A stretch of DNA of 28,233 nt from positions 1-28,233 of IMG/VR virus record IMGVR_UViG_3300031950_000011; one strand, 5' to 3'. This DNA is from a virus. Below the pieces are notes generated by a model, which had not been told where the DNA came from, made no database searches, and saw nothing but the letters and a program-made list of their open reading frames with translations. The position numbers and the translations under genes are program-made. Shown one piece after another: positions 1,417 through 27,185 of the stretch (within the stretch, counting starts at the first letter, position 1; the number at the start of each line of letters is the position of its first letter).

Positions 1417-1857
1417 TTAGGGCGCGGGTAAGGACGAGGCAGCGGCGTCAGGCAGCGTACCGACGCACGCCATGCAGTGGGTGAGCGAGGCCCGCTGGCC
1501 CTGGCTCAGGTCGCCGCGGCCCGCTGAACAAACAGCAATCTGTGAACAATTGCACCGCTGCGGGTCGATCCGGTGCGGGCAGGCGCGCGCCCGGCGCACC
1601 CGCGCGATCGCGTCCCGCACGCGCGCGAGCGCGGCATCGTCCCGCACGACTCCAGTTGCCGCTGCCGCCGCCGCTGCCGCTGCCGCGGGCGCACCACTGC
1701 CGGTGGACGCGGGCATTGCCGCGGCGTGGCCCGTGCTGGCCCGCGCGGCCAAGTACGTCTCGCAGAACGTCCGCCCGTCGTGGTGCCGCAGCCCGGCGCG
1801 CCCGCACCGGTCCGGGATCGGGCAGGCCGCGCAATGGGTCACTCGCTCAATGTCCAT
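1417..1857 (-). CDS. Cys-rich putative metal-binding protein
   Basis: This 146-residue protein has two Cys-rich ends joined by a poly-Ala linker. The N-terminal part has HCAACPIPDRC followed by a further Cys. The C-terminal part has ACPHRIDPQRCNCSQIAVC and ends in HCMACVG. The spacing suggests two zinc-binding knuckles, but I do not recognise the family. The middle carries an uninterrupted run of ten alanines (about residues 60-69). It is the last gene of the tail block and overlaps the end of the preceding gene. I chose ATG 1857 to keep the overlap small (19 bases); ATGs at 1875 and 1977 are also in frame and no strong ribosome binding site settles it. It could be a tail accessory or a small DNA/RNA-binding protein. 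Confidence 0.6.
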   Translation of the reverse strand: MDIERVTHCAACPIPDRCGRAGLRHHDGRTFCETYLAARASTGHAAAMPASTGSGAPAAAAAAAAAATGVVRDDAALARVRDAIARVRRARACPHRIDPQRCNCSQIAVCSAGRGDLSQGQRASLTHCMACVGTLPDAAASSLPAP

Positions 1858-3113
1858 GTGATCGGCAGGACGCATGATGAAATGAATGGTGGGTAGGTTG
1901 AAGAAAAACTCGTCGCTGAGCCGGGGGTCCCCGTCCCGCCCGCCGGTAGATTTGCGAGCCACGGGGCAAATGTCCATAGGTAGCTTTTGTTACCAGATAA
2001 ATAGTTGACACGCACTGTGTTTAGGTTAGTCAATTCACTCACTGGATACGTAAACAAATTTGACCCAATGCCGAGGCGGCACGGCAGATTAAGCGTCGTC
2101 CTTTGACCAGTCGAAGTCTCCGTCGGGCACGCAACAACTTCATATGTTGTTGGGTTCATAACTCCAACGCGAAGATACTCAGTGAATGGATGGCCAAGCC
2201 AGACGTAGTCGCGCCGGATGTCGGTATGGTAGACATGGAGATAACCGAAACAAGGCGAGTACACCACGCGCACCTGCGCGCGGTACGCGGTCGGTGTGAT
2301 CGATCCAGGACGACACGGAAGCGACCAGGGTGCGTATGCATCTGCGCCAGGATCAATATAATAATACGGCACCGGTAGCTCCACCGGCGCGCTGACGTAG
2401 ACGTTCAGTAAATCCGGGCGGTACATGCCAGGGATACCCCCGGTCCCGGCGGTGAAGTTAAAATCAGCGGGTAGCGTGTCATGATACGTCAATGCGACCG
2501 ACCCAATGAGCGAGTCGGTATAATAGAGGGTCTGCGGGATCGGATGGACCCCGAGGCACTCGGCGTTTTCAAGGCCCGGAAAAACATAACCCGGCGCAGG
2601 TGTGGTCAAGTCAAACTCCTGGTCGGGCGCAGGGCATTCCAGGGTGATCGTGCGCGTCGCGGACTGGTACCGCGGGTGGCTCACGGTGATTGTCCATTCG
2701 CCCTCGGTGATGTCCGGAAACTCGACGACACCTGTACTATCTGTCGTTAGAGTGAATGATTGGTCATCTTTCTGGATCGTGACCGTTGCGCCAGAAAGTG
2801 GCACCGATCGGCCACGTACAATGACGCGCAGGGGGCACGTAACAATACATGTCCGGCAGGCGATGATGAGGATCTCGCGCCCGTCCGTGTGTATTAGGCC
2901 GGTCCGCATTGCCACGTGCCGTGTGTCGGCCTGGGGCGCGTCGGTGCGACACCGCGAGACCTCCACGATCTCGCGCCCGTCCGTGTGGACGCGACCTGTC
3001 CGCAGCGCGACGTGACGGCCCTCGATCGGCGCACAGGGATCGGCAACGACGACAATCTCACGCCCGTCCGAGTGCGTCAGCCCGGTGCGCATCGCCACGT
3101 GCCGACCGATCAT
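1839..3113 (-). CDS. Putative tail fibre / receptor-binding protein with triple repeat and Ig-like domain
   Basis: This 424-residue protein begins with three copies of a motif of about 19 residues, GRHVAMRTGLTHSDGREIV (residues about 3-21, 32-50 and 65-82), separated by short Cys-containing linkers. Residues about 93-160 look like a carboxypeptidase-regulatory or Cna-B-type beta-sandwich (PLSGATVTIQ, STGVVEFPDITEGEWTITV). The remaining 260 residues are rich in Tyr, Pro, Thr and beta-prone segments, as in tail tip or fibre domains. It starts at ATG 3113, overlapping the preceding stop as ATGA. Its place, third gene after the tape measure protein, fits a distal tail role. The function as receptor-binding protein is inferred from position and composition, not from a recognised family. 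Confidence 0.6.
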   Translation of the reverse strand: MIGRHVAMRTGLTHSDGREIVVVADPCAPIEGRHVALRTGRVHTDGREIVEVSRCRTDAPQADTRHVAMRTGLIHTDGREILIIACRTCIVTCPLRVIVRGRSVPLSGATVTIQKDDQSFTLTTDSTGVVEFPDITEGEWTITVSHPRYQSATRTITLECPAPDQEFDLTTPAPGYVFPGLENAECLGVHPIPQTLYYTDSLIGSVALTYHDTLPADFNFTAGTGGIPGMYRPDLLNVYVSAPVELPVPYYYIDPGADAYAPWSLPCRPGSITPTAYRAQVRVVYSPCFGYLHVYHTDIRRDYVWLGHPFTEYLRVGVMNPTTYEVVACPTETSTGQRTTLNLPCRLGIGSNLFTYPVSELTNLNTVRVNYLSGNKSYLWTFAPWLANLPAGGTGTPGSATSFSSTYPPFISSCVLPITWTLSE

Positions 3114-3397
3114 CCCAGCACCCTCACCCAGACCTCGGGACCATCCACCCACGCCGTGCCGTCCCAGCGCTGGATGCGGCCCGGATAGAGGCCATTCGAC
3201 GCGGTGCCGGTAATTCGCACGACCGCTGTATCATTGACATCGGCATCAACAAATTGCCCGACGGGTGTCTGAGTGACCCGGATTTTGCCGCCCTGAACAG
3301 GCACGACCTGCCCCTGCTCGACGGCATCTACGAGGCGATTCAGGTCACGCGCGGCCAATACTTGACCGGGCTGAAATCGTGGCAGTCGTTCATTCAT
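3110..3397 (-). CDS. Small distal tail-region protein
   Basis: This 95-residue protein begins MNERLPRFQPGQVLAARDLNRLVDAVEQ, a motif of the type 'F.PGqvl.A.dlN.l..aV' that I have seen at the start of phage proteins encoded near tail fibre genes. The rest is beta-rich (VVRITGTASNGLYPGRIQRWDGTAWVDG), consistent with a small virion domain. It lies three bases after the preceding stop and overlaps the next gene by ATGA, so it is translated with its neighbours. It is probably a minor tail or fibre-attachment protein; no enzymatic motif is present. Confidence 0.6.
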   Translation of the reverse strand: MNERLPRFQPGQVLAARDLNRLVDAVEQGQVVPVQGGKIRVTQTPVGQFVDADVNDTAVVRITGTASNGLYPGRIQRWDGTAWVDGPEVWVRVLG

Positions 3398-6420: not shown

Positions 6421-7214
6421 TCATCCGCGCTCCAGCGTCTCGATGATTGCGTCGGGGTCGAGCCGCACGCCCTCGGTTGGCCCCGGCGGCGATTCCTTGC
6501 GCCGCTTTTCGCGCATCATCGCGCGGAAAACCTCGGCGGGGATCGGCTCCGGAAACGCACCCGGTGCGGACGTCCGGTCCGGCGTGTCAGGGTCCGAGAG
6601 CAGATAGATCAGCTCGTCGCGCGAGTATCGCATGATGTCTGACACCTGCCAGCCGAACTCACGCACGGCGTGTCGGATGAGACGCGCGTCAGTGAGTGGG
6701 TCTGGCTCCGGCGACGGCGGCCCCGTTACGCTGTCGCCGTCGCCGCCGTCAGTTTTCCCAGCGCCTCCCGGAAAATCTTGCGCTCGATCCCGAAAGCAAC
6801 CGCAAAGATGTCGTAAATTTCATCTACGGAGGCCCGATCGCCCAGCGCAATCGCGTCGTCCTCGGTGATGTCGGGCTGATCGGTGATGAGCGCGTGCTGA
6901 ATGACGACGGCCAGCACGTCTACGCTCGCCATCGCGCGCAGGCGGCCTAGCGGAGAGTCAAGCGTCACCGGCCAGCCTGAGCCGTCCCAGAGGGCTAATG
7001 CTCGATCCATCACCTTTTGGCGCGTCGCCTCATCCTCGATCCCCGCTTCTCGGATGAGTGTCTGAGCCTGCACGACCGGGTGCGGCCACGCCCGCTTGAG
7101 CGCCTCGTTGACCTTGTGGCGACCACCGAGCGTCAGCGGCCGCGCGAGAAATTCCGAGCCCGCGAGTGTGACCACCTGCGCGGGCCGGTGCAGAGCGTGC
7201 GGATCGCCTGCCAT
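6421..7214 (-). CDS. Tail assembly chaperone, -1 frameshift product (lambda gpG-T equivalent)
   Basis: The frame downstream of the 7214-6726 gene is open from the GGGAAAA heptamer to the stop at 6421, with no stop between. A -1 slip at 6753-6759 joins 154 residues of the upstream frame to about 110 residues that run TDGGDGDSVTGPP and on through VREFGWQVSDIMRYSRDELIYLL, giving about 264 residues. In lambda the analogous gpGT recruits the tape measure and major tail proteins during tail assembly, and the gene here directly precedes the tape measure gene, as expected. The T-like part could alternatively start at a GTG at 6666, but no good ribosome binding site is seen there and the slippery site with hairpin makes frameshifting the better explanation. 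Confidence 0.85.
6709..6759 (-). promoter_or_regulatory. Programmed -1 ribosomal frameshift signal (GGGAAAA plus hairpin)
   Basis: The heptamer G GGA AAA (6759-6753) is in the correct phase of the 7214-6726 frame and differs by one base from the lambda G-T site GGGAAAG. After a seven-base spacer comes CGGCGACGGCG (6745-6735), which pairs perfectly over 11 bases with CGCCGTCGCCG (6719-6709) around a 15-base loop. The zero-frame TAA stop (6728-6726) lies in the loop. Confidence 0.88.
6726..7214 (-). CDS. Tail assembly chaperone, short form (lambda gpG equivalent)
   Basis: This 162-residue protein (MAGDPHALHRPAQVVTLAGSEFLARPLTLGGRHKVNEALKRAW and on) has the features of the first tail assembly chaperone: an N-terminal beta segment describing '...l.G.ef.vrplt...' followed by an alpha-helical body (ASVDVLAVVIQHALI, ASVDEIYDIFAVAFGI). 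It sits between major tail protein and tape measure. The slippery site lies nine codons before its stop, so most ribosomes make this short form and a fraction make the extended form. AAGGA precedes ATG 7214. Confidence 0.82.
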   Translation of the reverse strand: MAGDPHALHRPAQVVTLAGSEFLARPLTLGGRHKVNEALKRAWPHPVVQAQTLIREAGIEDEATRQKVMDRALALWDGSGWPVTLDSPLGRLRAMASVDVLAVVIQHALITDQPDITEDDAIALGDRASVDEIYDIFAVAFGIERKIFREALGKLTAATATA

Positions 7215-7605: not shown

Positions 7606-8100
7606 TCAGATGCGTCCGATAATAACGATGTCGTACTGCTGTCCCACGGTCCCGCTGATCCGCAGGATGTCGCCCGTGGCGGCGACGACGGCGTAGCCCG
7701 TGGCGTCCGCGCCGTACAGCACCACGAATCCACCGGGCCGTAGCACGACGGTCGAAGTGCCAGGCAGGATCGTCGTCACGGTATTGGTACCGCCACCAAT
7801 CGTCAGCGTGGCGGTTGCTGATCGGTTTTTGATGGCGACGCTAATAATTGACGTGAATGTAATTGCGCCGCCGGTTTGGAGGTCGGTCAGCCCGCCGGCC
7901 AAGTCGAGGTCGTCATTGCCCCCCGTGGGGATCGTGCGGACGGCGTGCCAAGTCCGATTGGCCTGATTGGCGCCGGTGCCATTAGTGATCTGGCCCGCGA
8001 CCGAAAAGGTAGGACCGACACTCACGGGCACGTCGTTGACACCGATCGTGCGCTGGTCGCGCACATTAATGGCCGCAGAAACGCTTCCGTTGACGCTCAT
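7606..8100 (-). CDS. Beta-rich virion-type protein of unknown role
   Basis: This 164-residue protein is dominated by beta-prone Thr, Val, Gly and Ala segments, for example SATATLTIGGGTNTVTTILP, VVLRPGGFVVLYGADATG and ILRISGTVGQQYDIVIIGRI. The order of its parts resembles small structural proteins I have seen between head-tail connector and major tail genes in uncultured phages, but I know no assigned function. AGGAG lies six bases before ATG 8100. It could be a second tail tube or tail-decoration protein, because it directly precedes the major tail protein gene. Confidence 0.6.
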   Translation of the reverse strand: MSVNGSVSAAINVRDQRTIGVNDVPVSVGPTFSVAGQITNGTGANQANRTWHAVRTIPTGGNDDLDLAGGLTDLQTGGAITFTSIISVAIKNRSATATLTIGGGTNTVTTILPGTSTVVLRPGGFVVLYGADATGYAVVAATGDILRISGTVGQQYDIVIIGRI

Positions 8101-8109
8101 ACGTTGCTC

Positions 8110-8541
8110 CTAGATGCGCAAATCATTGAAAGAGATGGTAAACTGGAGAACGACGACGTAGAGAGTAGCCCCGTCCGGGCCGGATCGGGCGGCGTCGGGC
8201 GGGTCGGGATAGGGACCGATTTCCAGGTCGAGGCAGACGTGAATTGTTGCCTCGTCAATGATGGCCCGGTCGAGGCAAGCGAGTGCGTCGGCAGCGGAGG
8301 CGGCGGCGGCGGCAGAGGCGGCGACGACGCGGGTTTGCAGTGTCTGCGATCGGATGCGTGTTTGATCGGGCCGCGTGCCGGTCGAGCGGTCAATCGAGCC
8401 GTCAAGTGGGTCAATGATGGCCCGTGGCAGGCCCGCGGTGACGGGCGCATGTCCGAGATAGACGCCGCCCGGCAGAGCGTCAGCGATATCCTGCCGCCGC
8501 CGGCAAAACTCGACGAACGCCGCGATCGGGTGAGTCGTCAT
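8110..8541 (-). CDS. Putative tail terminator / completion protein
   Basis: This 143-residue protein starts MTTHPIAAFVEFCRRRQDIADALPGGVYLG with a helix followed by 'lpGgv..g.ap', as in the tail completion proteins of siphoviruses. The C-terminal half has LACLDRAIIDEATIHVCLDLEIGPYPDPPD and ends with the strand LYVVVLQFTISFNDL, also typical of that fold. It lies between the HK97 gp10-like gene and the tail tube genes, where the terminator gene is found in HK97-like and SPP1-like phages. An Ala/Ser-rich segment (VVAASAAAAASAADALA) in the middle should be a helix. The call depends on order and fold pattern. Confidence 0.6.
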   Translation of the reverse strand: MTTHPIAAFVEFCRRRQDIADALPGGVYLGHAPVTAGLPRAIIDPLDGSIDRSTGTRPDQTRIRSQTLQTRVVAASAAAAASAADALACLDRAIIDEATIHVCLDLEIGPYPDPPDAARSGPDGATLYVVVLQFTISFNDLRI

Positions 8542-8544
8542 GCG

Positions 8545-8994
8545 TCAGGATGTCTCCAGGCCCGAATCCGCCTCACCCCGCAGCACGCGCAGGACACGCT
8601 CGCGCGTCTCGCGCAGCGACCGCCGGAGCCACGGGCGCGGCTCGATCCGCGACGTGCCCAGCTCCAGATAGACCATATGATCCACCGATGAGCCGACCTG
8701 CACGGATAGCCCCTCGTCCGACTCAAAAACTTCGGGAAACAAACTAATCCCGCGGAACGAATCGGTCGAACGAAAGCCGATCGAGGCGCGGCCCTGCCCA
8801 GTGCGCAGCGCAGGCGGGTCACCGGGCGACGACGCCGGCGGGTAGCGCCGCGAGACAAGCCGCTTGGCGTGATTCCCCACCAGTAACGCGGCGCGAATCA
8901 ATCGCTGACGCATCACTTGTCGCGCTACCGTCATCGCTGACAGCTTATCCCAGACCAGCTCTGTTTCGATGATCAGGTCGAGGCCGTCACTCAT
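8545..8994 (-). CDS. HK97 gp10-like head-tail joining protein
   Basis: This 149-residue protein belongs to the HK97 gp10 / minor head-tail protein family. The key pattern is PPALRTGQGRASIGFR in the middle and VGSSVDHMVYLELGTSRIEPRPWLRRSLRE near the end, matching the family's 'p..rTG.L..si' and 'Ya.fqEfGT.....pFl.pal'. It probably joins the neck to the tail. I place the start at ATG 8994, which overlaps the preceding stop as ATGA; a start at 9027 would overlap that gene by more than 30 bases. Confidence 0.85.
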   Translation of the reverse strand: MSDGLDLIIETELVWDKLSAMTVARQVMRQRLIRAALLVGNHAKRLVSRRYPPASSPGDPPALRTGQGRASIGFRSTDSFRGISLFPEVFESDEGLSVQVGSSVDHMVYLELGTSRIEPRPWLRRSLRETRERVLRVLRGEADSGLETS

Positions 8995-10430
8995 ATCGAT
9001 GTATCCAAATCGCAATCGACGGTCCACATTTCGCTGAGCAGGTCGAGGTCACGGGGCACGCGGACGATGAGCCGGCGGGGTGCGCCGTGGGCTGTGATGG
9101 TGATGCGGTCGCCCACGCCGATAACCGTACCAGCCGCAACCAGCGGGGCGGGGTCAATATAGACGCGGTGTGTGATCCGCACGCCGTCGCGCTCATCGCT
9201 GGCGGGCCGGGCGCGGCTCCCGATCGGCTGCACATCCATCGGGACGTGGGAGGCGATGATCGACCACTCCGGCACGAGACCGCCATAGTCGCCCGGCTGG
9301 ACCGCGTGGCTGGGGCGCTCGATCGTGCCGAGTGCGAGTAGGTCCAGGCCCAGCAGCAGCGAGCCCGGAAACGATCCCGGCGGCGCGGGCAGCGGCACGG
9401 GCTCGGCTGTGACGACCAGCTCAGCCCCGAGGTCCAGCGACGCCGACGCACCAGCTTCTGGGGCCGCCGCCACGACCAGCGTCGGAGGCAGCGACAGCGT
9501 GGCCGCCGCATCGATGAGCGGCTCCGCCGTTACGACGAGCGTCGGCGCAAGCGAGAGACTTGCGCTGGCATCCGCGGGGGCCTCCGCTATGACCGTCAGC
9601 GTCGGCGACAGCGAGAAACTCGCGCTGGCGTCGGCGAGAGCCTCCGCCGCCACCGTCAGCGTCGGCGCGAGCGAGAGATTAACATTGGCATTCGCGGGGG
9701 CTAGTGCGTCAAAAACACGGATAAATAAGCGTGGACTAATGAGCCCAAATTCGCTCATCCAGTCGCGCGATAAATCAATCAGCTCCTGCTCATCCATCGC
9801 GCGCGGCCACGCCGCAAATCGCGCAATCCTTCGCGTGCCGGTCGATAGGCCAGAAAGGTCGCCCAATTTAGCAATCGTTCCGCTGGGGGGCCCAGGAACT
9901 CGCGCGACAAATGACGACGGAACACGTCCATTGATGACCAAGTTGGCGTCGCTGGCCGACATCGACGCCGCAATGACGCCCCATCGGGTGCCAGTCATGC
10001 CATGCGCGGCCACGACGCGCGGCGATCCGCCGTAGCCGGCGAATCCGACCCAGATATTGGGCGGCGTCATTTCGCCGCGATAGCCGCCTCCGTTGCGTAT
10101 AGCGAATAATCCCGACGACGCTGAATTTTCATCACAAATATCATCGCGCGTCGATGCATCCCAAGTGAGACGCACAACGAATGCCACTGTGATCGCCGAC
10201 GGCATTGCCACATTGACGTTGTGATGGCGATTAGCACCAACATATTCGACGGCACGGAATCCATTGGGACCGGCCTGGATCGTCGGAGTCCCCGCCCCGA
10301 CCGGTGCGGCCGGTCCATAGGGGGCACGCCAAGTCCCCGCGGAATCGCCCGCTTGGGCGGTCCGCGAGAGGCCCTCGCCGTCGTACCAGACGAGCGGTGT
10401 GCCGTAGGCGAGTGGACTGGACGGACGCAT
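8991..10430 (-). CDS. Fusion: lectin-like domain + five 20-aa repeats + head-closure-like domain
   Basis: This 479-residue protein has three parts. Residues about 10-235 resemble a LamG/concanavalin-type jelly roll (LVWYDGEG, FRAVEYVGANRHHNVNV, ITVAFVVRLTW, ANLVINGRV, RRIARFAAWPRAMDEQELIDLSRDWMSEFGL). Residues about 246-345 are five tandem 20-residue repeats of the form ADASASLSLAPTLVVTAEP. Residues about 370-479 resemble a head-closure/head-tail adaptor domain (SPP1 gp16 type): HAVQPGDYGGLVPEWSII, ITHRVYIDP, VIGVGDRITI and a final LSEMWTVDCDLD. Between the connector genes and gp10, a head-closure protein is exactly what is expected, but that protein is normally near 110 residues. The extra lectin and repeat region would project from the neck. 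Confidence 0.72.
   Translation of the reverse strand: MRPSSPLAYGTPLVWYDGEGLSRTAQAGDSAGTWRAPYGPAAPVGAGTPTIQAGPNGFRAVEYVGANRHHNVNVAMPSAITVAFVVRLTWDASTRDDICDENSASSGLFAIRNGGGYRGEMTPPNIWVGFAGYGGSPRVVAAHGMTGTRWGVIAASMSASDANLVINGRVPSSFVARVPGPPSGTIAKLGDLSGLSTGTRRIARFAAWPRAMDEQELIDLSRDWMSEFGLISPRLFIRVFDALAPANANVNLSLAPTLTVAAEALADASASFSLSPTLTVIAEAPADASASLSLAPTLVVTAEPLIDAAATLSLPPTLVVAAAPEAGASASLDLGAELVVTAEPVPLPAPPGSFPGSLLLGLDLLALGTIERPSHAVQPGDYGGLVPEWSIIASHVPMDVQPIGSRARPASDERDGVRITHRVYIDPAPLVAAGTVIGVGDRITITAHGAPRRLIVRVPRDLDLLSEMWTVDCDLDTSI
9396..9695. repeat. Five tandem 60-bp coding repeats
   Basis: Five head-to-tail 60-bp units inside the gene at 10430-8991 encode 20-residue repeats (core SLSLAPTLVVTAEP). 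The unit AGCGTCGGCG...AGCGAGA is visible at about 60-base intervals. Units are diverged at third positions but keep protein periodicity, so selection is on the protein. Confidence 0.85.
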
Positions 10431-10807
10431 CAGGAGAGGGCCGAGCGCGTCAGGATGTACGAGAGCGTGATCGCCTGACCGGTCGGCGACGCCTCGATGG
10501 CATATCGCCGGTGGTCACCGTAAGCCCCGCGAGCTAATGTCACGGGGAAATCGGTCGATTGATTCGCAGCTGCCGGGGTGACGATGTAACGGGCGAGCTC
10601 AAAGGTATCTGCCGCCGGCGGTGTCCCGGTCGTTGTGTTGGTTGCCAAAACCCGCACTGAGATGGACGTGGGCGCGGTCGCACCACTCGTGAGTTTCAGC
10701 GTGCAGGTCAAACTATCCTGCGCGTCGAACCAGCCGGTGCCGCCCCAGGTCGAGGCCGCGACCGACCCGACCGAGATCGTCCCGCTGTGCGTGACGGTGT
10801 ATGGCAT
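10430..10807 (-). CDS. Small beta-rich putative virion protein
   Basis: This 125-residue protein (MPYTVTHSGTISVGSVAASTWGGTGWFDAQD) is rich in Thr, Ser and Ala with alternating strands, ending AITLSYILTRSALS. It is not recognised. It lies between the head-tail connector and the head-closure fusion, overlapping the latter by the shared base of TGATG. Its composition suggests a capsid or neck decoration protein or a small baseplate-like jelly roll. There is no signal peptide or membrane segment. Confidence 0.55.
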   Translation of the reverse strand: MPYTVTHSGTISVGSVAASTWGGTGWFDAQDSLTCTLKLTSGATAPTSISVRVLATNTTTGTPPAADTFELARYIVTPAAANQSTDFPVTLARGAYGDHRRYAIEASPTGQAITLSYILTRSALS

Positions 10808-10809
10808 GA

Positions 10810-11154
10810 TTAGATCCTCGTCTGAGTTTGGGCCGCGGGCGCGGTCGCACTGGCCGCCCGCACGCGTGCCAGCGCCAGGCCCATCGCTGGCACGGCGGCC
10901 TGCACGGCCGCGCGGACGTCGGCATCACTGGCGTCGCGCGTCAGGTCGGACGTCGCCAGTACGAGCGCGTAGGCCCGCACACGCGTCGGAGCGTCGAGCA
11001 GGGCGACCGCGACCGCTACGGCGTCCGGACTGGCCGCTGGATCGATCAGGGTGGTCGCGGCCCACTCGATCAGCGCGGCCTCCACCTGCGACCAAAGCCG
11101 CGACGAGGGAGCGACCAGCAGCGCGTGTAGGTCAGCGAGTGGTGTCTGAGTCAT
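10810..11154 (-). CDS. Small alpha-helical protein of unknown function in head module
   Basis: This 114-residue protein (MTQTPLADLHALLVAPSSRLWSQVEAALIEWAATTL) looks entirely helical and Ala-rich, with no recognised motif. It sits in a run of small genes between the head-tail connector and the neck genes, two bases upstream of the next start. Conserved position rather than sequence suggests a virion assembly role. A chaperone-like role is equally possible. Confidence 0.5.
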   Translation of the reverse strand: MTQTPLADLHALLVAPSSRLWSQVEAALIEWAATTLIDPAASPDAVAVAVALLDAPTRVRAYALVLATSDLTRDASDADVRAAVQAAVPAMGLALARVRAASATAPAAQTQTRI

Positions 11155-11168
11155 TGCTGTATCACCTA

Positions 11169-11558
11169 TTACGGGTTAGGTAGCGCAACGCTGAATCCGG
11201 TCAGCTGGACGGTTTGCGACGCGGTGACAGTCGTCGGGACAACTGTGAATCCGTCGCCCTCGTTCCAGTCGGCGACGACATTGCCACTGGAATCGACCAG
11301 CACGGCGCATCCAATCGTACCAGAGGCCGAGGCGGTCGCGGTGCGTGGTAGCCCGGTCAGCGTGATTGTCCCGTTACTCGCCGCCGCAAAAGGTGACGTG
11401 CCCAGCGAATAGGTCACCAGCAGCGTGCCGGCCGGTAGCTGGCCGAGCGTCGCATTGCGCGGGCCCGAATACATGCGCAGCTGCGCACTATTTCCGAGAT
11501 AGGTATTCGTCGTGTCAAGCATCGCATTGCGGTACCCGACGACGGCACGACCAGGCAT
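11169..11558 (-). CDS. Small virion-type protein of unknown role
   Basis: This 129-residue protein begins MPGRAVVGYRNAMLDTTNTYLGNSAQLRMYSGPRNATLGQLPAG, a pattern ('ml......g..a.lriYsGprPat') that I recall from small phage proteins near capsid and connector genes, usually unannotated. The rest alternates strands and Ser/Thr/Ala loops (ATASASGTIGCAVLVDSSGNVVADWNEGDGFTVV). GGAG lies before ATG 11558, eleven bases after the upstream stop. A minor capsid or decoration role is likely but unproven. Confidence 0.6.
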   Translation of the reverse strand: MPGRAVVGYRNAMLDTTNTYLGNSAQLRMYSGPRNATLGQLPAGTLLVTYSLGTSPFAAASNGTITLTGLPRTATASASGTIGCAVLVDSSGNVVADWNEGDGFTVVPTTVTASQTVQLTGFSVALPNP

Positions 11559-11569
11559 GGATCAGCTCC

Positions 11570-12439
11570 CTAGTAGACGATGGTTGATGTCTCAGTGAGC
11601 CGCCACGGGGCGGCGAGAGCGGCGGCGGCGGGCGAAATCAGGCCGGGCGGCGTCCCGCCACTGGACGACGATTGGGACGCCGACGACGGCGGGAAAAACT
11701 CGATCTCGCGGTCGCCCAGTCTTCGGCGGCGGATGCCAGCCGCGACGCTTATCTGCGCTTCAGCGACCGCAAAGCGAGCGATTGCTTCCAGCAACAGCGC
11801 CTCACGCAGTGCGGCGGGGATGAGCGCCGCTGGCCAGCCGTGCGTGGCGATGACGTGGCCGATCCACGACGCTTGACCTAGCGTGATCATGCCCGTCTCG
11901 TGATCGACCTGGCAGTCGAGCGGCTCGCCAAACAGGTCCAGGTCAAGACCGGTGTCGGTGTCGAGCCATTGGGCGGGCATTGAGGCCCACTCGGGCGGCG
12001 GCGGCGGGCATTGCCACCCCGGCTGAGCGGCAATCACCGCAGCCATCGCGCCGACGGTCGGGTGCGTCGCTACGGGCAGCGTCACCTCGGTCAGTGCGCC
12101 GCCGATGTAGCGTGCGAGCCGGACCGCGGTGATCCGGCGCGGTCGCCACGGCTCCGCCACGGGCGGATCGCGGACGACCTCCACCCAGCCGGCTGCCGAC
12201 GTCTCCCGGACGCCTAGCGATCCAGTCCAGCTCAGCACGCGGACGCCCGTCAGAGGCGGCGACGGGATGACCAGCAGCTCGCCACCACGCACCAGCCACA
12301 CGCCCTGCGCCTGTTCGAGCGTGCGGCGCAAGTAGCCCTCCATGGCCGCTTGCGCCGCCGCAATGACCGCGGACGCCTGCGCTTGCTGCGCCGCGGTCAG
12401 CGTCGTTCGTGCGAGGATGTCAGCGAGCGTGAGAATCAT
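11570..12439 (-). CDS. Head-tail connector (adaptor) protein, gp6/gp15-like with insertion
   Basis: This 289-residue protein starts with the helical pattern of head-tail connectors: LADILARTTLTAAQQAQASAVIAAAQAAMEGYLRRTL. Further on come a strand-rich segment (GGELLVIPSPPLTGVRVLSW) and C-terminal helices (LIPAALREALLLEAIARFAVAEAQISVAAGI). The helices would dock on the portal ring. It is longer than the family norm (about 100-200 residues); the extra length lies in the central part (PPPPPEWASMPAQWLDTDTGLDLD) and in a Ser-rich tail (SASQSSSSGG). Start ATG 12439 shares one base with the preceding stop (TGATG). Confidence 0.7.
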   Translation of the reverse strand: MILTLADILARTTLTAAQQAQASAVIAAAQAAMEGYLRRTLEQAQGVWLVRGGELLVIPSPPLTGVRVLSWTGSLGVRETSAAGWVEVVRDPPVAEPWRPRRITAVRLARYIGGALTEVTLPVATHPTVGAMAAVIAAQPGWQCPPPPPEWASMPAQWLDTDTGLDLDLFGEPLDCQVDHETGMITLGQASWIGHVIATHGWPAALIPAALREALLLEAIARFAVAEAQISVAAGIRRRRLGDREIEFFPPSSASQSSSSGGTPPGLISPAAAALAAPWRLTETSTIVY

Positions 12440-12885
12440 CAGGTGTGTTGGATAATCTCGGCCACATCAGCCAGGTCCACGTGGGCGGCTGGGTAGTACC
12501 CAATGATGCCGGCCAGTGCCACGAGCGACAGCGGGGCGGCGGCCCCACCAACCGTCACGGTAGCGCGGATTTGGTCGTATCCCGCGGCCAGCGAATCGAT
12601 CCGCGGCGTGGACACCTCCATCACCACGATCCGGTTATCGCCGTTCGCCTTGGTCAACTGCGTGATGGTCGCGCCGGGCACATCGACGGGCGAGCCCGTG
12701 CCGACGCGCGCTTGGATTTTCAGATCGATCGTTGACGTCGCGGCCAGCGTGCCCGTTTGGAGGACAAACAGGACACGCTGAATGCGCGACAGCGCGATCC
12801 AGTCGCTATTCGTCGAGCCGACGTTGTAGCTGGCGGGATCGATCGTGGCGACGACCGCGAGCGTCTCAGATAGATGGCGATTCAT
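12439..12885 (-). CDS. Putative capsid decoration protein
   Basis: This 148-residue protein directly follows the major capsid gene (two-base gap). It is beta-rich and contains RVLFVLQTGTLAATSTIDLKIQARVG and YDQIRATVTVGGAAAPLSLVALAGI, a pattern seen in many small proteins encoded just after HK97-type capsid genes ('v.vlv..G...ts.tld.kiq'). Those are generally taken as cement or decoration proteins. No lambda gpD motif is clear, so the role is inferred from position and pattern. Confidence 0.65.
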   Translation of the reverse strand: MNRHLSETLAVVATIDPASYNVGSTNSDWIALSRIQRVLFVLQTGTLAATSTIDLKIQARVGTGSPVDVPGATITQLTKANGDNRIVVMEVSTPRIDSLAAGYDQIRATVTVGGAAAPLSLVALAGIIGYYPAAHVDLADVAEIIQHT

Positions 12886-12887
12886 AA

Positions 12888-14261
12888 TTACACCTTTGGC
12901 CCAAGAACGATGAATGGGGAGACCTCAGTGTTGCCGGTGGTGCGGCCCTCATGCAGCTTGACCGTGGCGCGCAGGGCCGGCTTGCCACCCCAGCGCAGTT
13001 TGAATCGAAACGCAATCAGGTCTTCATCGAACTTAAAGTCTTCACTCACTCCGACCTCAAGCGATTGCATGAAGCCGAGATAGTAGAAGCGTGGATTGAC
13101 CAAACACACATCGCCGGTCGTGCCGAGGGCCGGCAGCTTCTCGGTGAAACGAATCGGCAGCCCCAGCAGCGTGGATGGCAGGCCGCCCTGAGCGCCGCCG
13201 GTATTGGCGATCCAGATAGGCGTTGAGCCGACCGAGAGCGTGCCGAGCTGCGGGATGACCGTCTGCGACATCAGCCAGTACGCACCCGGCGCAGACGGCA
13301 TATGCAGCCGCGAGTACATCGCCAGTGCATCAGCGTAGGTAAATTTGTTGTTGTCGGCGCGGTTGACGACCAGGCGGCAGGGATTGCCGCTGTGCAGCGC
13401 GCCGAGTGCCTTGTTGATACCATCTCCAAACATCGACACATAATCGACGTTATAGGCGATCGCCTCGCGGAACATCGCCTGAATTTCGGACTCGTGGCCG
13501 GGAGCGTCAGCCAGCAGGTCGCGGGATGCCTCCGTGTAGCCGGTCGCGTCGTGCGCCACTAGATCGATTTGCTCATACACCGGCTGCGAGGCGGTTCGTT
13601 TTGCTGTCTCGCTCTTGTAGTAGATGCGAATCCCCGCATACATCGGGGACGAATCCTCGCTCACGGGCGCGCCAGTCTGAGCTAGTGCCGGCCTGAATTG
13701 CTCGCGCGACACCATGTTGACCTGGCGGGTAAAGGGCGCAAAAACCGCGGTTTCGGCGCTCAGCCGGAAAAGATCCTGCACATATTCAGGCGCGATGAGA
13801 AAACCGCCCGCAGCTCCCGTGGCTCCCGACGAGGCTTTGATTGACGCGTCGGCCAGTGACCGCACCGGCTCAATCTCGCCGTCGGGGCCGTAACGCCGTG
13901 CGCCGTAGACCTTGGCCAAACGCTCGAACGCCTCCGGGTCACGGTAGCGCTGAGCCGCGACAATGCAGCGGATGTTGTCGGCGAAGGATTTGCGGCGATC
14001 CGCCTCGGATTCACCGGGGCTAATCTGATACACCCCTTGAGCGGGGCGAATATGGCTCACCGCCTTAACAATCGACGCTTGAACCATCTCACTGATGCGC
14101 GATTCGAGCGCCTGCGCGGCGGCGTCGAGATTTGGCGTAGGCGGCGTGGTCGCCTGCGTGGCGAGGCCCGCCTGGACCAGAGTTTGGGCGGCGGTGTCAG
14201 GCAGGTCGAACGACTCGCCTGCCCGACGACCGTCGTAGTCTTTGGTCAGTGTCACAATCAT
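12888..14261 (-). CDS. HK97-fold major capsid protein
   Basis: This 457-residue protein has the layout of HK97-family capsid precursors. Residues about 1-125 are a charged, helix-prone region (IVTLTKDYDGRRAGESFDLPDTAAQTL, then LDAAAQALESRISEMVQASI) likely acting as scaffold and removed by the protease encoded upstream. The mature part begins near SSGATGAAGGFLIAPEYVQDLFRL (the N-arm 'G.lvP....'), followed by the peripheral and axial domain motifs: VSREQFRPALAQTGAPVSED, ASRDLLADAPGHESEIQAMFREAIAYNVDYVSMFGDG, AYWLMSQTVIPQL, LLGLPIRFTEKLPALG and a final strand region. A 152-base gap separates it from the protease gene; I see no gene in it. Confidence 0.93.
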   Translation of the reverse strand: MIVTLTKDYDGRRAGESFDLPDTAAQTLVQAGLATQATTPPTPNLDAAAQALESRISEMVQASIVKAVSHIRPAQGVYQISPGESEADRRKSFADNIRCIVAAQRYRDPEAFERLAKVYGARRYGPDGEIEPVRSLADASIKASSGATGAAGGFLIAPEYVQDLFRLSAETAVFAPFTRQVNMVSREQFRPALAQTGAPVSEDSSPMYAGIRIYYKSETAKRTASQPVYEQIDLVAHDATGYTEASRDLLADAPGHESEIQAMFREAIAYNVDYVSMFGDGINKALGALHSGNPCRLVVNRADNNKFTYADALAMYSRLHMPSAPGAYWLMSQTVIPQLGTLSVGSTPIWIANTGGAQGGLPSTLLGLPIRFTEKLPALGTTGDVCLVNPRFYYLGFMQSLEVGVSEDFKFDEDLIAFRFKLRWGGKPALRATVKLHEGRTTGNTEVSPFIVLGPKV

Positions 14262-15187: not shown

Positions 15188-15291
15188 GACTCATCCTCCG
15201 ACGGGCGGTCGGCGTCAGCGTCGGTGTCGGCATCGGCGCGGTCCCAGGCCGCGACAGCCGCTGCGATGTCATCATCCGTCACGTCATCCAT
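15184..15291 (-). CDS. 35-aa acidic small protein between MuF and protease
   Basis: A 36-codon frame starts at ATG 15291, overlapping the MuF stop by eight bases (ATGGATGA), and ends at 15184 overlapping the protease ATG as ATGA. The product (MDDVTDDDIAAAVAAWDRAD then DTDADADRPSEDES) is very acidic with one predicted helix. The exact fit between two genes, with coupling overlaps at both ends, supports translation. Function unknown; it could be a small scaffold-associated or coupling peptide. Confidence 0.5.
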   Translation of the reverse strand: MDDVTDDDIAAAVAAWDRADADTDADADRPSEDES

Positions 15292-17152
15292 TGCCTAGCC
15301 TCTTGAGCCGCTCCTCCTGATACCGCTGGAGTTGACGCATCGACTCAGACTCGTCGGCTAAATCAAAGGCGCAGCGCACCATGACCCCATTGTTTTTCCA
15401 CCACGCTCGCCCAACCTCGGTACGCATCAAGTCAGACAGCCGTGAGACATTGCCCAGCGCGGCCCGCGCCGCGTCAAGCACGCGGTCCGGAATCGGCGCG
15501 TCGAAGCCAAAGAGGGGCCAGGTGTAGTAGCCGTTCTCCGAGCCGACCCCAGCGCGGCCCGTCGCACGCCCCTCCGCCGAGCCTGCCGCGGTCAGCGTAA
15601 TCCGCTCCAGTCCCGCTTTGCGGGCCGATTCGACCATGCCCAGGAATGTTTTGATCCCAAAACCATTACCAATCTTTGAATAAAATTGGTCAATCTCCAA
15701 TCGTTTATTTTTCAGCTGGCAGCGCAGTGTCAGTCGGTCATCGTCGGTCAGCGCCTGGATCTGGTCGTCGATGTCGTCGTGGTAGACGACTGCGATACGT
15801 CCGCGCGGGATGCCGCAGATATCGAGCGCCTGGTCGAGCGTGATCGGGCGGCCCGTGACGCGCTGGATGATCGCTTCGATGCCCCGCTTGGCGGTGTCGT
15901 AGCCCTCGGTATTGGCGTAATAAGTCCGCTCGTCGGTCCGGATGCGGACGGCGCGTCCGTTACGCTCGTCGTAGGGCTCACCGGGGACGCGCGGTAGCTC
16001 CGGCTGGCGGAGCCGCGGATCGACCCGGAATGTCTGCGCCGTGCGTACCGCATCTACGACAGCCGAAACGGTGCTGGGCGCGCCGGTATCGCCCGTGGCC
16101 AGCCCACCGACCGTCTCGCGGGCACCACTGACCGTGTCCGCGACCTGCCGCCCTAGGTCGAACAGGTCAGCGACCGTCACGGATTCGCCGGCCTGGATGC
16201 GACCGATCGTCTGGCGCGCCGTCCCGACCACCTGGCTCACGTCGCCGGCGAGATCGACCACATCGGCGACCGAGGAAACGACCTGACGCGCGTCAGGCTT
16301 TGGCTCCGGTGCGGGCGCGGGCGAGGGGACGGAGGCAAGCGCAGGGACGGGGCCGACCGCGTAGCTGCGGGGGACGAGTACGGCCACGACGGTACAGGTG
16401 CAGTTAGGGTGCGCCGGCGGGTGCCGGATGATCGAGTAGGTCGGGTGGTCGCCGATTTGGCCAAAGACACCGCCCAGCGGAATTTCCGGCATCGACCGCT
16501 GGATATCCATGCAGACCTCGCACGCACCCGCTGAGAGTAGCCAGCGCCAGCCGTAGACCACGCCGGACGCCTCGCCTGCGAGCACGAGGCCCTGATTGCT
16601 CGCCCGCATCGCCTCGGTCCGGGCAATTGTCCGAGCGCGTGACCGAGAGGCGTGGTCGAAGATCGCCTCGACCCGCTTCGTCAGCCGTGCGATTGCTTCG
16701 CCGCGCTGCATGCCAGTGGACATCTCCTGGCGCAGGGCCGCTAGCGCCTCGTCAAGCTGGCGTGATGTTGTCGCATTGGTCGTCGCGCTGAAGTCGTAGG
16801 CGGCGCGCTCGGCGGCCTGAATGACATGCTCATTGGTCACCCGCTGGATGGGTCGAGTCCCGACCGCAGCGGCCAGCCGGCGTTCCCCAGAGCGGATGAT
16901 CTCAGTCAGGACGGGCATTGCGCGGCGGGCCAAATCGGGCGTGTCCGCCTCGACTGAGGGTGGGGGGGCTGCCCCCTTGCTGATCGCTCGCTCACCGCGT
17001 GCCAGCTGGCGGAGATAGCGCCGCCACACACGGCGCTGACGCAGAAATGTCTCCTCCAGGATCGCACGCAACGCCGGCCCCGTCGGGAGCCGGTAGGTAT
17101 TCGGCTCACCGTGCCCGCGAGGCCGGGCGGCTTTGCACACGTGGCTAGGCAT
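15284..17152 (-). CDS. MuF-like minor head protein with C-terminal GNAT-like extension
   Basis: The 622-residue product from ATG 17152 has a SPP1 gp7/Mu gpF core. RARTIARTEAMRASNQGLVL (about residues 172-191) is followed by CEVC (211-214) and HPNCTCT (248-254), the Cys/His cluster of this family. It then has a Pro-rich linker (about 275-290), a helical Val/Asp-rich region, and from about residue 400 a separate domain. That domain contains VVYHDDIDDQIQAL, EIDQFYSKIGNGFGIKTFLGMVESARKAGLERITL and NGYYTWPLFGFDAP, which resembles a degenerate GNAT acetyltransferase fold (GxGxG-like loop then helix). MuF proteins with variable C-terminal domains, some toxic, are known in temperate phages. The start overlaps the portal stop by eight bases. 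The core is firm; the tail domain identity is inference. Confidence 0.85.
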   Translation of the reverse strand: MPSHVCKAARPRGHGEPNTYRLPTGPALRAILEETFLRQRRVWRRYLRQLARGERAISKGAAPPPSVEADTPDLARRAMPVLTEIIRSGERRLAAAVGTRPIQRVTNEHVIQAAERAAYDFSATTNATTSRQLDEALAALRQEMSTGMQRGEAIARLTKRVEAIFDHASRSRARTIARTEAMRASNQGLVLAGEASGVVYGWRWLLSAGACEVCMDIQRSMPEIPLGGVFGQIGDHPTYSIIRHPPAHPNCTCTVVAVLVPRSYAVGPVPALASVPSPAPAPEPKPDARQVVSSVADVVDLAGDVSQVVGTARQTIGRIQAGESVTVADLFDLGRQVADTVSGARETVGGLATGDTGAPSTVSAVVDAVRTAQTFRVDPRLRQPELPRVPGEPYDERNGRAVRIRTDERTYYANTEGYDTAKRGIEAIIQRVTGRPITLDQALDICGIPRGRIAVVYHDDIDDQIQALTDDDRLTLRCQLKNKRLEIDQFYSKIGNGFGIKTFLGMVESARKAGLERITLTAAGSAEGRATGRAGVGSENGYYTWPLFGFDAPIPDRVLDAARAALGNVSRLSDLMRTEVGRAWWKNNGVMVRCAFDLADESESMRQLQRYQEERLKRLGNG

Positions 17153-18569
17153 CCACATCGATATCGATGTCAGGCTCATCGGCGGGCATCGCATAGGGGT
17201 CGCTGAGCGGCGGCGACGGGTCGACCAGCCGACTGAGCGGCTCACGCTGGGAGGGTACGAGCAGCTCGTCAGCTCCGGCGACCGGGCTCCAGCCCTCCTC
17301 TGTGCGCACTTCGTTGATGCTGAGCACGCCGTGATCGAGCCACATGCCGTAGACTCGCGCCCTCGTCTCGGCGTCGTCCGGCACCGGGTCGTCAAAGGCA
17401 AAAAACAGACGCTCGTCATAGCGTGCCGCGAGCCCGCGCGTCAGCGCCGCGTCGATCCGCCGGCAGCGGGGACGGATCGCCAGCCGACCATGCGCGACGT
17501 GCGCAGCCTCCGCATTGGCCCGATTCACATCTTTGGATTCGAGTAGAGCAATCGGCACCTGAAAAGCATTGCAGATTTCGACTTTGGCGCTGCGCCGAAT
17601 GTCCAAATCAGCCATGTCGCGCGGGGGGAATGCGAGCGGCGTGACGCTGAGCGCGCCGCGAGCGACGAGCGGGCGACCTGACGCGCTGCGGCCGAATCGC
17701 TGGACAAGTGACGCCTCGATCCGCCGGGCCTCCTCTTCGCCCAGCGGCATCGCAGCATCCGCGGGCGTAATCAGGTAGTCCGGGCGTGCCCGATTGGTCA
17801 CGATTGCCTGTTCATAGGCCAAATATTCATCGTGGATCAGAACTGACTCCCACGCGGCCCGAAATGGCGACCACGGCCGCAGGTAGGGATCGGTCAGGGC
17901 GCGCATCCGAATGACGATGAGCTCGTCGGCGGTGTAGGTGCGTGTGATGCGGTCGCCGACATAGTCGTAGCGTGCGACGCGGGTCAGTGCGGGATCATCG
18001 CGGGTGTCGAGGTCGCGTGTCGGTGTCACCTGATGCGACGGCAGAACCCAGAGCCGATCCGCGGGCAGCATCACCGCGACGCCTGTCTGACCGGATTGCT
18101 CGGGCCAGAGATAGGTGACGCCTGAAATATCGAGGTAGAGCGAAATAAGCTCAATGAGGGCGCATCGGTCCAGGTCGGCGCAGGGGTGATCCAGTAGGTC
18201 AAGCAGCGGGTGCTCGGTGATCTCGTCCACGGCCTCCGCGCCTGCGACGCGCTTTGTGATATCAGGCCGGGTCGCGCTCCAGGCGGCCTTCGTGCGCCGG
18301 CTAACGGGCCGATGCGGCACGCGAGGCCGCTTCTGGCCGGCGGAGGTCGTCGCATACAGGCGAAGCGGTGTTGATGCGATCGCCTGAGCGTTGAGCTGGG
18401 CGCACGTGTAGGCGATGTTTGTACAGCGTCGCACGAGGTCCGCAATCGTTGGCTCGCGGCGCAAGCCAAACAGGTCCACGAGGCCGGCGGATCGGTAGCT
18501 GGCGGTATCATGAGGCCTGCCGCGGAGGCTGGCTTTGATGTCGCGCCACCAGTCGGTCAGACGTCCCAT
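17145..18569 (-). CDS. Phage portal protein (HK97/lambda-like)
   Basis: This 474-residue protein forms the dodecameric portal ring. Family features include an N-terminal helix (MGRLTDWWRDIKASLRG), the LVRRCTNIAYTCAQLNAQAIASTPLRLY segment, HPLLDLLDHPC, and the typical 'ellGnaYlw...g' region seen as LYLDISGVTYLWPEQ. The C-terminal half holds MADLDIRRSAKVEICNAFQVPIALLESKDVNRANAEAAH, matching 'I...fgVPp.llg' of the portal family. The start at ATG 18569 overlaps the terminase stop by 13 bases. A His/Arg-rich insertion (KRPRVPHRPVSRRTKAAW) is unusual and may reflect adaptation. Confidence 0.9.
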   Translation of the reverse strand: MGRLTDWWRDIKASLRGRPHDTASYRSAGLVDLFGLRREPTIADLVRRCTNIAYTCAQLNAQAIASTPLRLYATTSAGQKRPRVPHRPVSRRTKAAWSATRPDITKRVAGAEAVDEITEHPLLDLLDHPCADLDRCALIELISLYLDISGVTYLWPEQSGQTGVAVMLPADRLWVLPSHQVTPTRDLDTRDDPALTRVARYDYVGDRITRTYTADELIVIRMRALTDPYLRPWSPFRAAWESVLIHDEYLAYEQAIVTNRARPDYLITPADAAMPLGEEEARRIEASLVQRFGRSASGRPLVARGALSVTPLAFPPRDMADLDIRRSAKVEICNAFQVPIALLESKDVNRANAEAAHVAHGRLAIRPRCRRIDAALTRGLAARYDERLFFAFDDPVPDDAETRARVYGMWLDHGVLSINEVRTEEGWSPVAGADELLVPSQREPLSRLVDPSPPLSDPYAMPADEPDIDIDVDA

Positions 18570-21837: not shown

Positions 21838-22650
21838 CTAGTAAGTGCGGTAGGCCAACAGGGCGACCACGAGCGAGAGTGAGGCGACGACCAGGGCGAT
21901 GACAGCGATGACATCCGTCGGAGTAGGCGGCGATGCGGGGCCAGGGTTTGGCGCAGGCGCAGGGGCGGGCTCCGGCTCCGGCTCTGGCTCCGGCACGCCG
22001 CGCGTCGAGAGGATCGCGGTCATCCAGGTCCGCCCGACGGGCGAGCCGATTGTCGCACGCCGCCAGTACTCCGGCGCGGGCAGTAGCACGGCCTCGCGCG
22101 GGAAATTGTTGTCCACCACCACACACCAGCCGTCGTCATACGGGCCGACATGTGCGACGGAAACCATGTGCGCGATCGGCTGACCGTAGCGCCGGCCCCA
22201 GCCGTAGGTGGTACCCAGGGGGACACCCAGCTCATTCCAGCGCCGCAGCGTCTCGTAGTCGGCGCTGGGGTCCTGCACCCAGATCACGCCCGGATGCCGG
22301 GCGACGACCTCGCGCATCTGATCGCGGTATTTCTCGGGCCAGTGCCCGCCGGGCCGCGCGGAGGAGATGCGCCGGATCGTCTCCGCGACATCGGTCGATC
22401 CCAGCACGATCGCATTATTCGCGGTGGACGCCATGACACAGCAGCCTGCGCCGTCGGTGCCGGCCCAGTTTTTTAGGGTCCGCGACAAATCAAATGTCGC
22501 GTGAGCAGGCGTTCCGTCAGGCAGGTCGGTCGTAGGCCGGGCAATCTCCACGTCGTAGGGTGGTCGAGACTGCGCGACGACCGGCAACGCGGGCGCGACC
22601 GTCGCGGCGGCGACGAGAGCCAATCGGGCAAGTGTGCGCGTCACGGACAT
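21838..22650 (-). CDS. Secreted, C-terminally anchored cysteine-peptidase-like protein
   Basis: This 270-residue protein has a signal peptide (residues 1-27, ending VVAQS), then a domain with the order expected of papain-fold enzymes: TDGAGCCVMAS (Cys 70/71 as nucleophile), IAHMVSVAHV (His 161 in HMV), and VVVDNNFP (Asp 180/Asn 181). A PEPEPEPEPAPAPAPNPGP linker (about residues 220-240) is followed by a membrane segment (VIAVIALVVASLSLVVALLAY) at the C-terminus. I recall similar Cys/His/DNN proteins from Planctomycetota, but have no search to confirm. The catalytic residues appear present, so an active envelope protease or amidase is plausible. It follows a 50-aa hydrophobic protein by three bases. 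Confidence 0.7.
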   Translation of the reverse strand: MSVTRTLARLALVAAATVAPALPVVAQSRPPYDVEIARPTTDLPDGTPAHATFDLSRTLKNWAGTDGAGCCVMASTANNAIVLGSTDVAETIRRISSARPGGHWPEKYRDQMREVVARHPGVIWVQDPSADYETLRRWNELGVPLGTTYGWGRRYGQPIAHMVSVAHVGPYDDGWCVVVDNNFPREAVLLPAPEYWRRATIGSPVGRTWMTAILSTRGVPEPEPEPEPAPAPAPNPGPASPPTPTDVIAVIALVVASLSLVVALLAYRTY

Positions 22651-22653
22651 CGG

Positions 22654-22806
22654 TCAGACCCGGTTCCGGATATCGGCGAGAATAGCGCAGATCCGCACGA
22701 GCAGCGCGACCTGCGCGACGGCCAGTGCGAGCGACCAGCCGACGAGGGCGAGCAGGGAGCCGAGCGAATCGGCGACGGCGGCGGCGAGGGCAAGCAGGTC
22801 ACGCAT
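22654..22806 (-). CDS. 50-aa hydrophobic membrane protein (holin candidate)
   Basis: From ATG 22806 (eight-base overlap with the preceding stop) the 50-residue product is nearly all hydrophobic: LLALAAAVADSLGSLLALVGWSLALAVAQVALLVRICAILADI, enough for one long or two short membrane helices, and ends in IRNRV. In this block of secreted proteins a small membrane protein is the best holin candidate, but no holin family signature is visible. Confidence 0.55.
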   Translation of the reverse strand: MRDLLALAAAVADSLGSLLALVGWSLALAVAQVALLVRICAILADIRNRV

Positions 22807-23095
22807 CGGGCGGGTACTCCCGGGCGAGGATCGTATCGACGGCGGTCGTGCCTTGCGGTGCCGCGGGCGGCGAGGGTGGAGCGTGTGGTGGCGCGGGGCG
22901 GGCACCCATGACGCGACCGGCAGAGGCGGTTCCAGCGGCAGAGTGGGCGGCGGCGGCGGCAGAGTGTGTGACAGGTGTCAGACCAGCCAAGCGATCGAGC
23001 CGGTCGAGAATCTCTGGCGGCGGGGCAACGCAGTCGGGCAGCTCGACCTCGATCGTGACGTGGTCGCGGCCCACGCGGATGACGCGATAAATCAT
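22799..23095 (-). CDS. Hypothetical protein with Ala/Pro-rich tail
   Basis: This 98-residue protein starts MIYRVIRVGRDHVTIEVELPDCVAPPPEILDRLDRLAGL, one base after the preceding stop. A short beta strand pair (YRVIRV, VTIEVEL) and a helix are followed by a low-complexity tail of Ala, Pro and Gly (SAAAAAHSAAGTASAGRV, APPHAPPSPPAAPQG). No function is recognised. It is translated between the metalloprotease-like protein and the hydrophobic protein. Confidence 0.5.
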   Translation of the reverse strand: MIYRVIRVGRDHVTIEVELPDCVAPPPEILDRLDRLAGLTPVTHSAAAAAHSAAGTASAGRVMGARPAPPHAPPSPPAAPQGTTAVDTILAREYPPDA

Positions 23096-23096
23096 C

Positions 23097-24230: not shown

Positions 24231-24436
24231 CACCCCCTCTCCGGGTCTAGGGATTCACGAATCATGCGCTCGATCCGGCGCTCATAGCGTCGCAAGGTCC
24301 GATCCGACCATCCGAGGGCCCGCGCTAGATCCTGCCGGCGCATCGCCGCCGTCTGCGGGTGCGAGAGCAGGGCGGCGACGACCACGAGACGATCGTAGCA
24401 GGTCGCGGCGGTCGATGATATGTTTGGTAGCGTCAT
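24230..24436 (-). CDS. Small HTH DNA-binding protein
   Basis: This 68-residue protein contains a helix-turn-helix-like stretch: QDLARALGWSDRTLRRYERRIERMI (about residues 36-60), preceded by a helix (CYDRLVVVAALLSHPQTAAM). It resembles DeoR/MarR-like or small phage regulators. It is the first gene of the long minus-strand run of packaging, head and tail genes, and the leader upstream carries a palindrome (24469-24479). It may regulate that run or its own promoter. AGAGGG precedes ATG 24436. Confidence 0.65.
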   Translation of the reverse strand: MTLPNISSTAATCYDRLVVVAALLSHPQTAAMRRQDLARALGWSDRTLRRYERRIERMIRESLDPERG

Positions 24437-27169: not shown

Positions 27170-27185
27170 CCTGCCGGAGCGATCC

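Follow-up and report, generated by a model that had tools for sequence, protein, structure and literature searches.

A candidate neck adhesin in an uncultured siphophage-type virus: a LamG-like domain and five repeats joined to a head-closure-like domain

We describe a gene of an uncultured bacterial virus whose product appears to combine, in a single polypeptide, a lectin-like domain, five 20-residue repeats and a head-closure-like domain. The gene lies on the minus strand of the window, by which we mean the whole stretch of 28,233 bases that was analysed (IMG/VR virus record IMGVR_UViG_3300031950_000011, positions 1 to 28,233). We propose with moderate confidence that it encodes a head-closure protein bearing a stalked N-terminal LamG-like domain, that is, a candidate accessory neck adhesin. 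The features on which this reading is based are the following.

8545-8994, minus strand: Neck1 / HK97 gp10-like tail-completion protein (phrog_5, E 8.5e-11; phrog_879, E 2.2e-4)
8991-10430, minus strand: whole fusion ORF of 479 aa, lectin-like region plus five repeats plus head-closure-like region (ORF call, translation)
8994-9365, minus strand: head-closure-like (SPP1 gp16 / PF05521-like) region, residues 356-479 (weak library matches, match to a bacterial-genome protein in locus L186, profiles)
9336-9392, minus strand: Pro/Gly/Leu-rich linker, residues 347-365, leading from the repeats to the start of the head-closure region (sequence)
9393-9692, minus strand: five degenerate 20-residue repeats, residues 247-346, consensus about DASASLSLAPTLVVTAEPLA (period and identities)
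9711-10430, minus strand: lectin-like (Laminin_G_3 / ConA-like jelly-roll) region, residues 1-240 (profile match)
10430-11558, minus strand: three small genes (10430-10807, 10810-11154 and 11169-11558) between the connector and the fusion ORF
11570-12439, minus strand: head-tail connector/adaptor, first gene of the neck module (phrog_442, E 3.7e-10)
12888-14261, minus strand: HK97-type major capsid protein (PF05065, E 2.5e-27)

A single reading frame in the neck module

Profile searches of the window genes placed the fusion ORF within a siphophage-type head, neck and tail gene cluster. Along the minus strand the order is TerS, TerL (phrog_979, E 2.5e-84), portal, a Phage_Mu_F-type head protein, protease, HK97-type capsid, the gene at 12439-12885, the connector, the three small genes, the fusion ORF, the Neck1/gp10-like gene, the genes at 8110-8541 and 7606-8100, the major tail protein (phrog_1407), the gene at 6726-7214 and the tape measure (phrog_28). 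The fusion ORF is found in the head-closure slot between the connector and the Neck1 gene, with the three small genes intervening on the connector side. These were considered as possible sites of the true head-closure gene and set aside, as none had head-closure similarity in the PHROG and head-closure profile searches; one of them (11169-11558) belongs to phrog_3758, a virion structural protein. No other head-closure candidate was seen in the interval from the connector to gp10.

The ORF at 8991-10430 given in the original prediction is real, and our analysis adds its strand. It is one uninterrupted frame, laid out as an N-terminal part of about 245 aa, the five repeats and a C-terminal part of about 120 aa, and it overlaps both of its neighbours: its start codon (ATG, 10430-10428) overlaps the stop of 10430-10807 (TGATG), and its stop codon (TGA, 8993-8991) shares four bases (ATGA) with the beginning of the gp10-like gene, which starts at the ATG at 8994-8992. 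Near the repeat/head-closure junction the only common start codons in frame are GTG 345, GTG 386, ATG 398 and GTG 400 (residue numbers), and no AGGAGG-like site was found upstream of any of the four; judged from the reading frame, there is no plausible separate head-closure start inside the ORF.

GC content at 4-fold sites was 0.69 in residues 1-245 and 0.86 in residues 246-479 (p 5e-4), compared with 0.79 in the other window genes pooled. This step coincides with the lectin/repeat boundary and not with the repeat/head-closure boundary. Its position speaks for a modular origin of the protein and makes a simple chimaera from sequencing less likely at the repeat/head-closure junction. Full-length searches of phages, plasmids, viral contigs and genome contigs found no relatives of the whole protein, and scans of viral contigs found none for the C-terminal or the N-terminal part alone, so that the fusion is known from a single metagenomic contig. 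In principle, assembly or sequencing could have created the fusion artificially, a frame error or a chimaeric contig having linked an adhesin gene to a head-closure gene that is in fact separate, and the lack of a second copy of the contig together with the composition step at the lectin/repeat boundary would agree with this. We regard such an artefact as very improbable, however, since the repeat/head-closure junction lies inside one compositionally uniform stretch with the step elsewhere, the frame is open throughout and overlaps both neighbouring genes, and no start codon with a Shine-Dalgarno site is available for a separate head-closure gene.

Several other observations were made in the window. 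Inside the fusion ORF, near the lectin/repeat boundary (9732-9747, minus strand), is a terminator-like hairpin followed by a T-rich tail; seven terminator-like sites were found in 8000-13000 against 2.1 expected, and no function is claimed for them. The Phage_Mu_F/minor head protein (15284-17419, minus strand; PF04233 at residues 229-344) is extended at its C-terminus by about 350 residues that match nothing in Pfam, which makes it another structural protein with a large added domain. The ORF at 1839-3152 (minus strand), downstream of the tape measure, has in its N-terminal part a motif of about 20 residues (GRHVAMRTGLTHSDGREIV) that occurs three times, followed by a CarboxypepD_reg-like domain (PF13620, E 1.1e-10); its 4-fold-site GC of 0.65 is lower than that of other genes, and it is a tail-fibre candidate. 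Beside the terminase gene, the ORFs at 21838-22650 and 23097-24233 (minus strand) resemble, by eye only, a papain-type and an HExxH metallo-type peptidase, which would be unusual cargo at that place. The ORF at 27105-27791 (plus strand, opposite to the structural genes) resembles, also by eye, an RNA polymerase ECF-type sigma factor, and a 23-bp unit (CCCGGGCCAAATTAGCCCTCCCC) occurs three times in tandem at 28102-28170, near the right end of the record.

Sequence evidence for the three parts

No library model of Pfam, PHROGs or NCBIfam reached threshold with the whole 479-aa protein or with any of its parts, and the assignments were made with purpose-built profiles and pairwise comparisons. 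The three-part reading of the original prediction (lectin-like, repeats, head-closure) held in every sequence test run, except that the repeats are not exact.

The lectin-like fold proposed for the N-terminal part is supported at the profile level. Against a Laminin_G_3 profile built from 46 domains, nearly all of Planctomycetota, residues 1-245 scored 20.6 bits in hmmsearch (E 1.5e-5), while the best of 1000 shuffles reached 7.2 and none of the control window proteins came near this score; the match covers residues 48-225 (window 9756-10289). An earlier LamG profile that contained badly cut domains had given an unclear signal, which became clear when the profile was rebuilt from the 46 domains. 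In addition, the hhalign score of the N-terminal domain against LamG was 36.3 (shuffle maximum 18.4), and the alignment ran through residues 52-225 from end to end, taking in both the 'WhhvavtydG..lYvDG' core and the C-terminal 'alsaeEi..L' helix. The N-terminal region matched nothing in Pfam (its own LamG model included), PHROGs or NCBIfam, and AlphaFold2 run without relatives on residues 1-241 gave a pLDDT of 33.4. At the level of sequence comparison, the LamG/ConA-like assignment of this domain is well supported.

The five repeats with a 20-residue period are also real and far beyond chance, with a lag-20 self-match score of 197 against -19 +/- 18 in 2000 shuffles (maximum 48), and the 60-nt period was additionally detected at the DNA level by TRF and a second repeat search. 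The copies are, in order, NANVNLSLAPTLTVAAEALA, DASASFSLSPTLTVIAEAPA, DASASLSLAPTLVVTAEPLI, DAAATLSLPPTLVVAAAPEA and GASASLDLGAELVVTAEPVP. They had been described as exact, and this is true of their length only: the period is exactly 20 residues, whereas pairwise amino-acid identity among the five is 35-65% and, at the DNA level, the nearest copies share 69-72% identity. Differences between copies are most frequent at third codon positions (0.58, versus 0.35 and 0.31 at the others), which indicates that the repeats diverged while much of the protein pattern was kept. Hydrophobic residues alternate along the repeats, a pattern suggestive of two short beta-strands in each copy.

The C-terminal piece alone had a single match in PHROGs, head closure Hc1 (phrog_501, E 0.21), and a single match in Pfam, DUF6093 (E 0.038), both below threshold. 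DUF6093 is annotated beside the HK97 gp10 gene in phage MinS1 (PMC8876498). The best match of the C-terminal piece in 392 Planctomycetota genomes was a 114-aa protein (L186:1450-1794, E 2.9e-4 per genome), a level at which about 0.1 matches are expected by chance with this number of genomes, so that the E-value by itself is not decisive. The matched protein is a PF05521 Phage_HCP (E 1e-7) that stands alone, and its gene directly follows a connector of phrog_442 (E 1.9e-30), the same family as the window's connector (BLASTP of the connector pair, E 1e-5); chance would rarely pick a head-closure gene beside a phrog_442 connector. The C-terminal domain and the L186 protein align in BLASTP with 26% identity over 78 residues (E 4e-8), and it is through this protein, by transitivity, that the PF05521 similarity, below thresholds directly, is reached. 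Lower-ranked genome matches (L189, L190 and others) had no significant head-closure similarity and were treated as chance, and two other apparent C-terminal relatives (L102 and L103) were rejected as a chance 'DRITITAHG' match within a 686-aa protein.

Comparison with profiles pointed in the same direction. The C-terminal domain scored 6.5 against a 21-sequence head-closure profile, above all 1000 shuffles (maximum 3.1), its hhalign score against head closure was 21.7 (shuffle maximum 20.0), and two profile-profile comparisons, each weak when taken alone, gave E 0.042 and E 0.003; a smaller profile of 7 sequences, too sparse, gave no signal. Furthermore, an alignment of ten head-closure proteins that includes the L186 protein reaches PDB 2kca (SPP1 gp16, E 0.016) and PDB 2kz4, a solved head-tail adaptor (E 5e-4). 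AlphaFold2 without relatives gave a pLDDT of 35.7 for residues 338-479. The head-closure-like C-terminus of the original prediction has in this way gained support of moderate strength from the L186 match and the profiles, although it stays below library thresholds when searched directly, and residues 356-479 are very probably a head-closure domain.

Head-closure genes and their neighbours in related loci

The statement that head-closure proteins are normally about 110 residues long holds for the relatives. An iterated search of the collected phage and prophage loci gave 21 head-closure frames of 112-175 aa, measured stop to stop, and none of the 21 is fused; relatives in which the C-terminal domain stands alone, which the original prediction had proposed looking for, are found in L186 and in all 21 of these frames. 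Likewise, 57 phage or virus records, mostly TerL or capsid relatives, contained six PF05521 matches, all in frames of at most 175 aa. No lectin/head-closure fusion was found among the phage and prophage loci collected, and the only LamG domain in them comes from a Methanoculleus virus, where it is part of a 727-aa protein at another place. Compared by terminase, the window is nearest to the virus contig L012 and to L106, a contig from Planctomycetales (48% over most of TerL), and a planctomycete-type host is therefore possible.

In distant relatives, large extra proteins are encoded as separate genes just before the connector. In L010 (phage record MW202897) the head-tail connector and head-closure genes are immediately preceded by the gene of a 708-aa protein (22109-24235) that contains GDSL lipase and SASA esterase domains and also matches, in part, a neck-passage-structure PHROG; it is possibly a neck-borne esterase. 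In L188 a 603-aa protein lies just before the connector. The third case, Streptomyces phage Hiyaa (L003), which shares a phrog_22694 gene with the window, has gp13 (1110 aa, L003:9539-12871) between the capsid and head-tail adaptor genes; like the fusion protein, gp13 has repeats behind a long N-terminal part, and 20 residues is again their strongest period, but gp13 is encoded by a gene of its own, the head-closure/connector gene (gp15) being a different one, and its repeat sequence differs. Its similarity to the LamG profile was not significant (E 0.47).

Such big carbohydrate-active or fibre-like genes near the connector (L010, L003 and L188) would also fit a reading in which the C-terminal region is not head closure and the protein, there by coincidence, forms a decoration, a fibre or a tail-associated adhesin of its own. 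The single scores, which are weak (phrog_501 E 0.21, DUF6093 E 0.038, profile-profile E 0.042), and a predicted structure that is uninformative (pLDDT 36) agree with this reading as well. We nevertheless consider it unlikely because two independent libraries gave head-closure-type families as the only match, the best genome match (L186) turns out to be a head-closure gene next to a connector of the window's family, the neck module has no other head-closure candidate, and the 4-base overlap between the head-closure and gp10 genes recurs in L003 (13841-13844) and L010 (25230-25233) as in the window.

Proposed working and comparison with known neck appendages

SPP1 gp16 and HK97 gp7 form rings of 6-12. 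If the fusion protein is indeed a head-closure protein, its C-terminal domain would, like SPP1 gp16, become part of the neck ring that lies between connector and tail, and the five repeats would form a 100-residue stalk carrying the LamG/ConA-like domain. The N-terminal modules would project outward, probably in 6-12 copies per neck, and the lectin domains could serve as an accessory adhesin for surface or glycan ligands, probably of low affinity and reversible, and provide weak multivalent contact with the cell surface before or beside tail-tip binding. Regarding its origin, an adhesin module probably entered between the connector and head-closure genes and became joined in frame to the latter. 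Since the lectin would be covalently part of the DNA-channel ring, the DNA-channel gate might even sense mechanically that the lectin has bound the cell surface, neck contact in this way helping to license genome release independently of the tail tip; we think this highly unlikely.

In phages, carbohydrate-binding modules are known from the capsid, the tail, the baseplate and separate collar proteins. The T4 fibritin (wac) whiskers, trimeric coiled coils from a separate gene with no lectin and no head-closure domain, are like the fusion protein only in being a neck appendage. Lectin-type display at the neck is already known, and what would be new here is the anchor, the head-closure protein itself; display by this protein was not found among the sequences compared or in the literature searched. 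The fusion resembles PF05521/SPP1 gp16, phrog_501 and DUF6093 in the sequence trend of its C-terminal 120 aa, its slot and its 4-base overlap with the next gene, but known members have about 105-150 aa and no extra domains, whereas the fusion adds about 350 aa N-terminally.

In lactococcal 936 phages, carbohydrate-binding modules are carried by a separate neck passage protein, and the isolated neck passage structure (NPS) module bound host cells weakly (PMC6669499). The likeness lies in carbohydrate-binding-type modules at the neck, where those of the fusion would be placed. The 936 NPS is, however, a separate collar/fibre protein with a coiled-coil stalk and C-terminal modules, while the module of the fusion is N-terminal, LamG-like, set on beta-type repeats and within the head-closure polypeptide, with no stop or plausible restart between the two; searched as a whole, the fusion protein had no NPS-family PHROG match. 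Jelly-roll or carbohydrate-binding-type domains around the neck also occur in the collar protein gp13 of Agrobacterium phage Milano, which has glycan-binding-like jelly-roll domains (PMC10491603), and at the tip of the neck fibres of Anabaena phage A-1(L), whose carbohydrate-binding module did not bind its host (PMC10966104). These are separate proteins of contractile-tailed phages, seated on the neck 1 or connector ring and not fused to head closure.

The two last examples bear on a reading that accepts the same neck fusion but takes the LamG-like domain and repeats as a structural collar or decoration with no glycan binding, making protein-protein contacts that stabilise the neck or bridge it to capsid or tail. 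We judge this somewhat unlikely. It is consistent with the general observation that LamG domains often bind proteins too. Additionally, the Milano collar is built of jelly rolls, and its function is unknown, stability having been suggested (PMC10491603), and the A-1(L) module failed to bind (PMC10966104). On the other hand, the 936 NPS module did bind host cells (PMC6669499), and a flexible stalk with one distal domain would fit display better than a clamp.

Lastly, if the accessory-adhesin reading is true, the head-closure protein, an essential gate that is normally minimal, would be a display platform, which would widen the set of virion positions tolerating added domains and would provide a natural display site with a defined copy number at the neck. 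The finding further suggests that phages use the connector-to-head-closure interval as an insertion site for adhesin modules.
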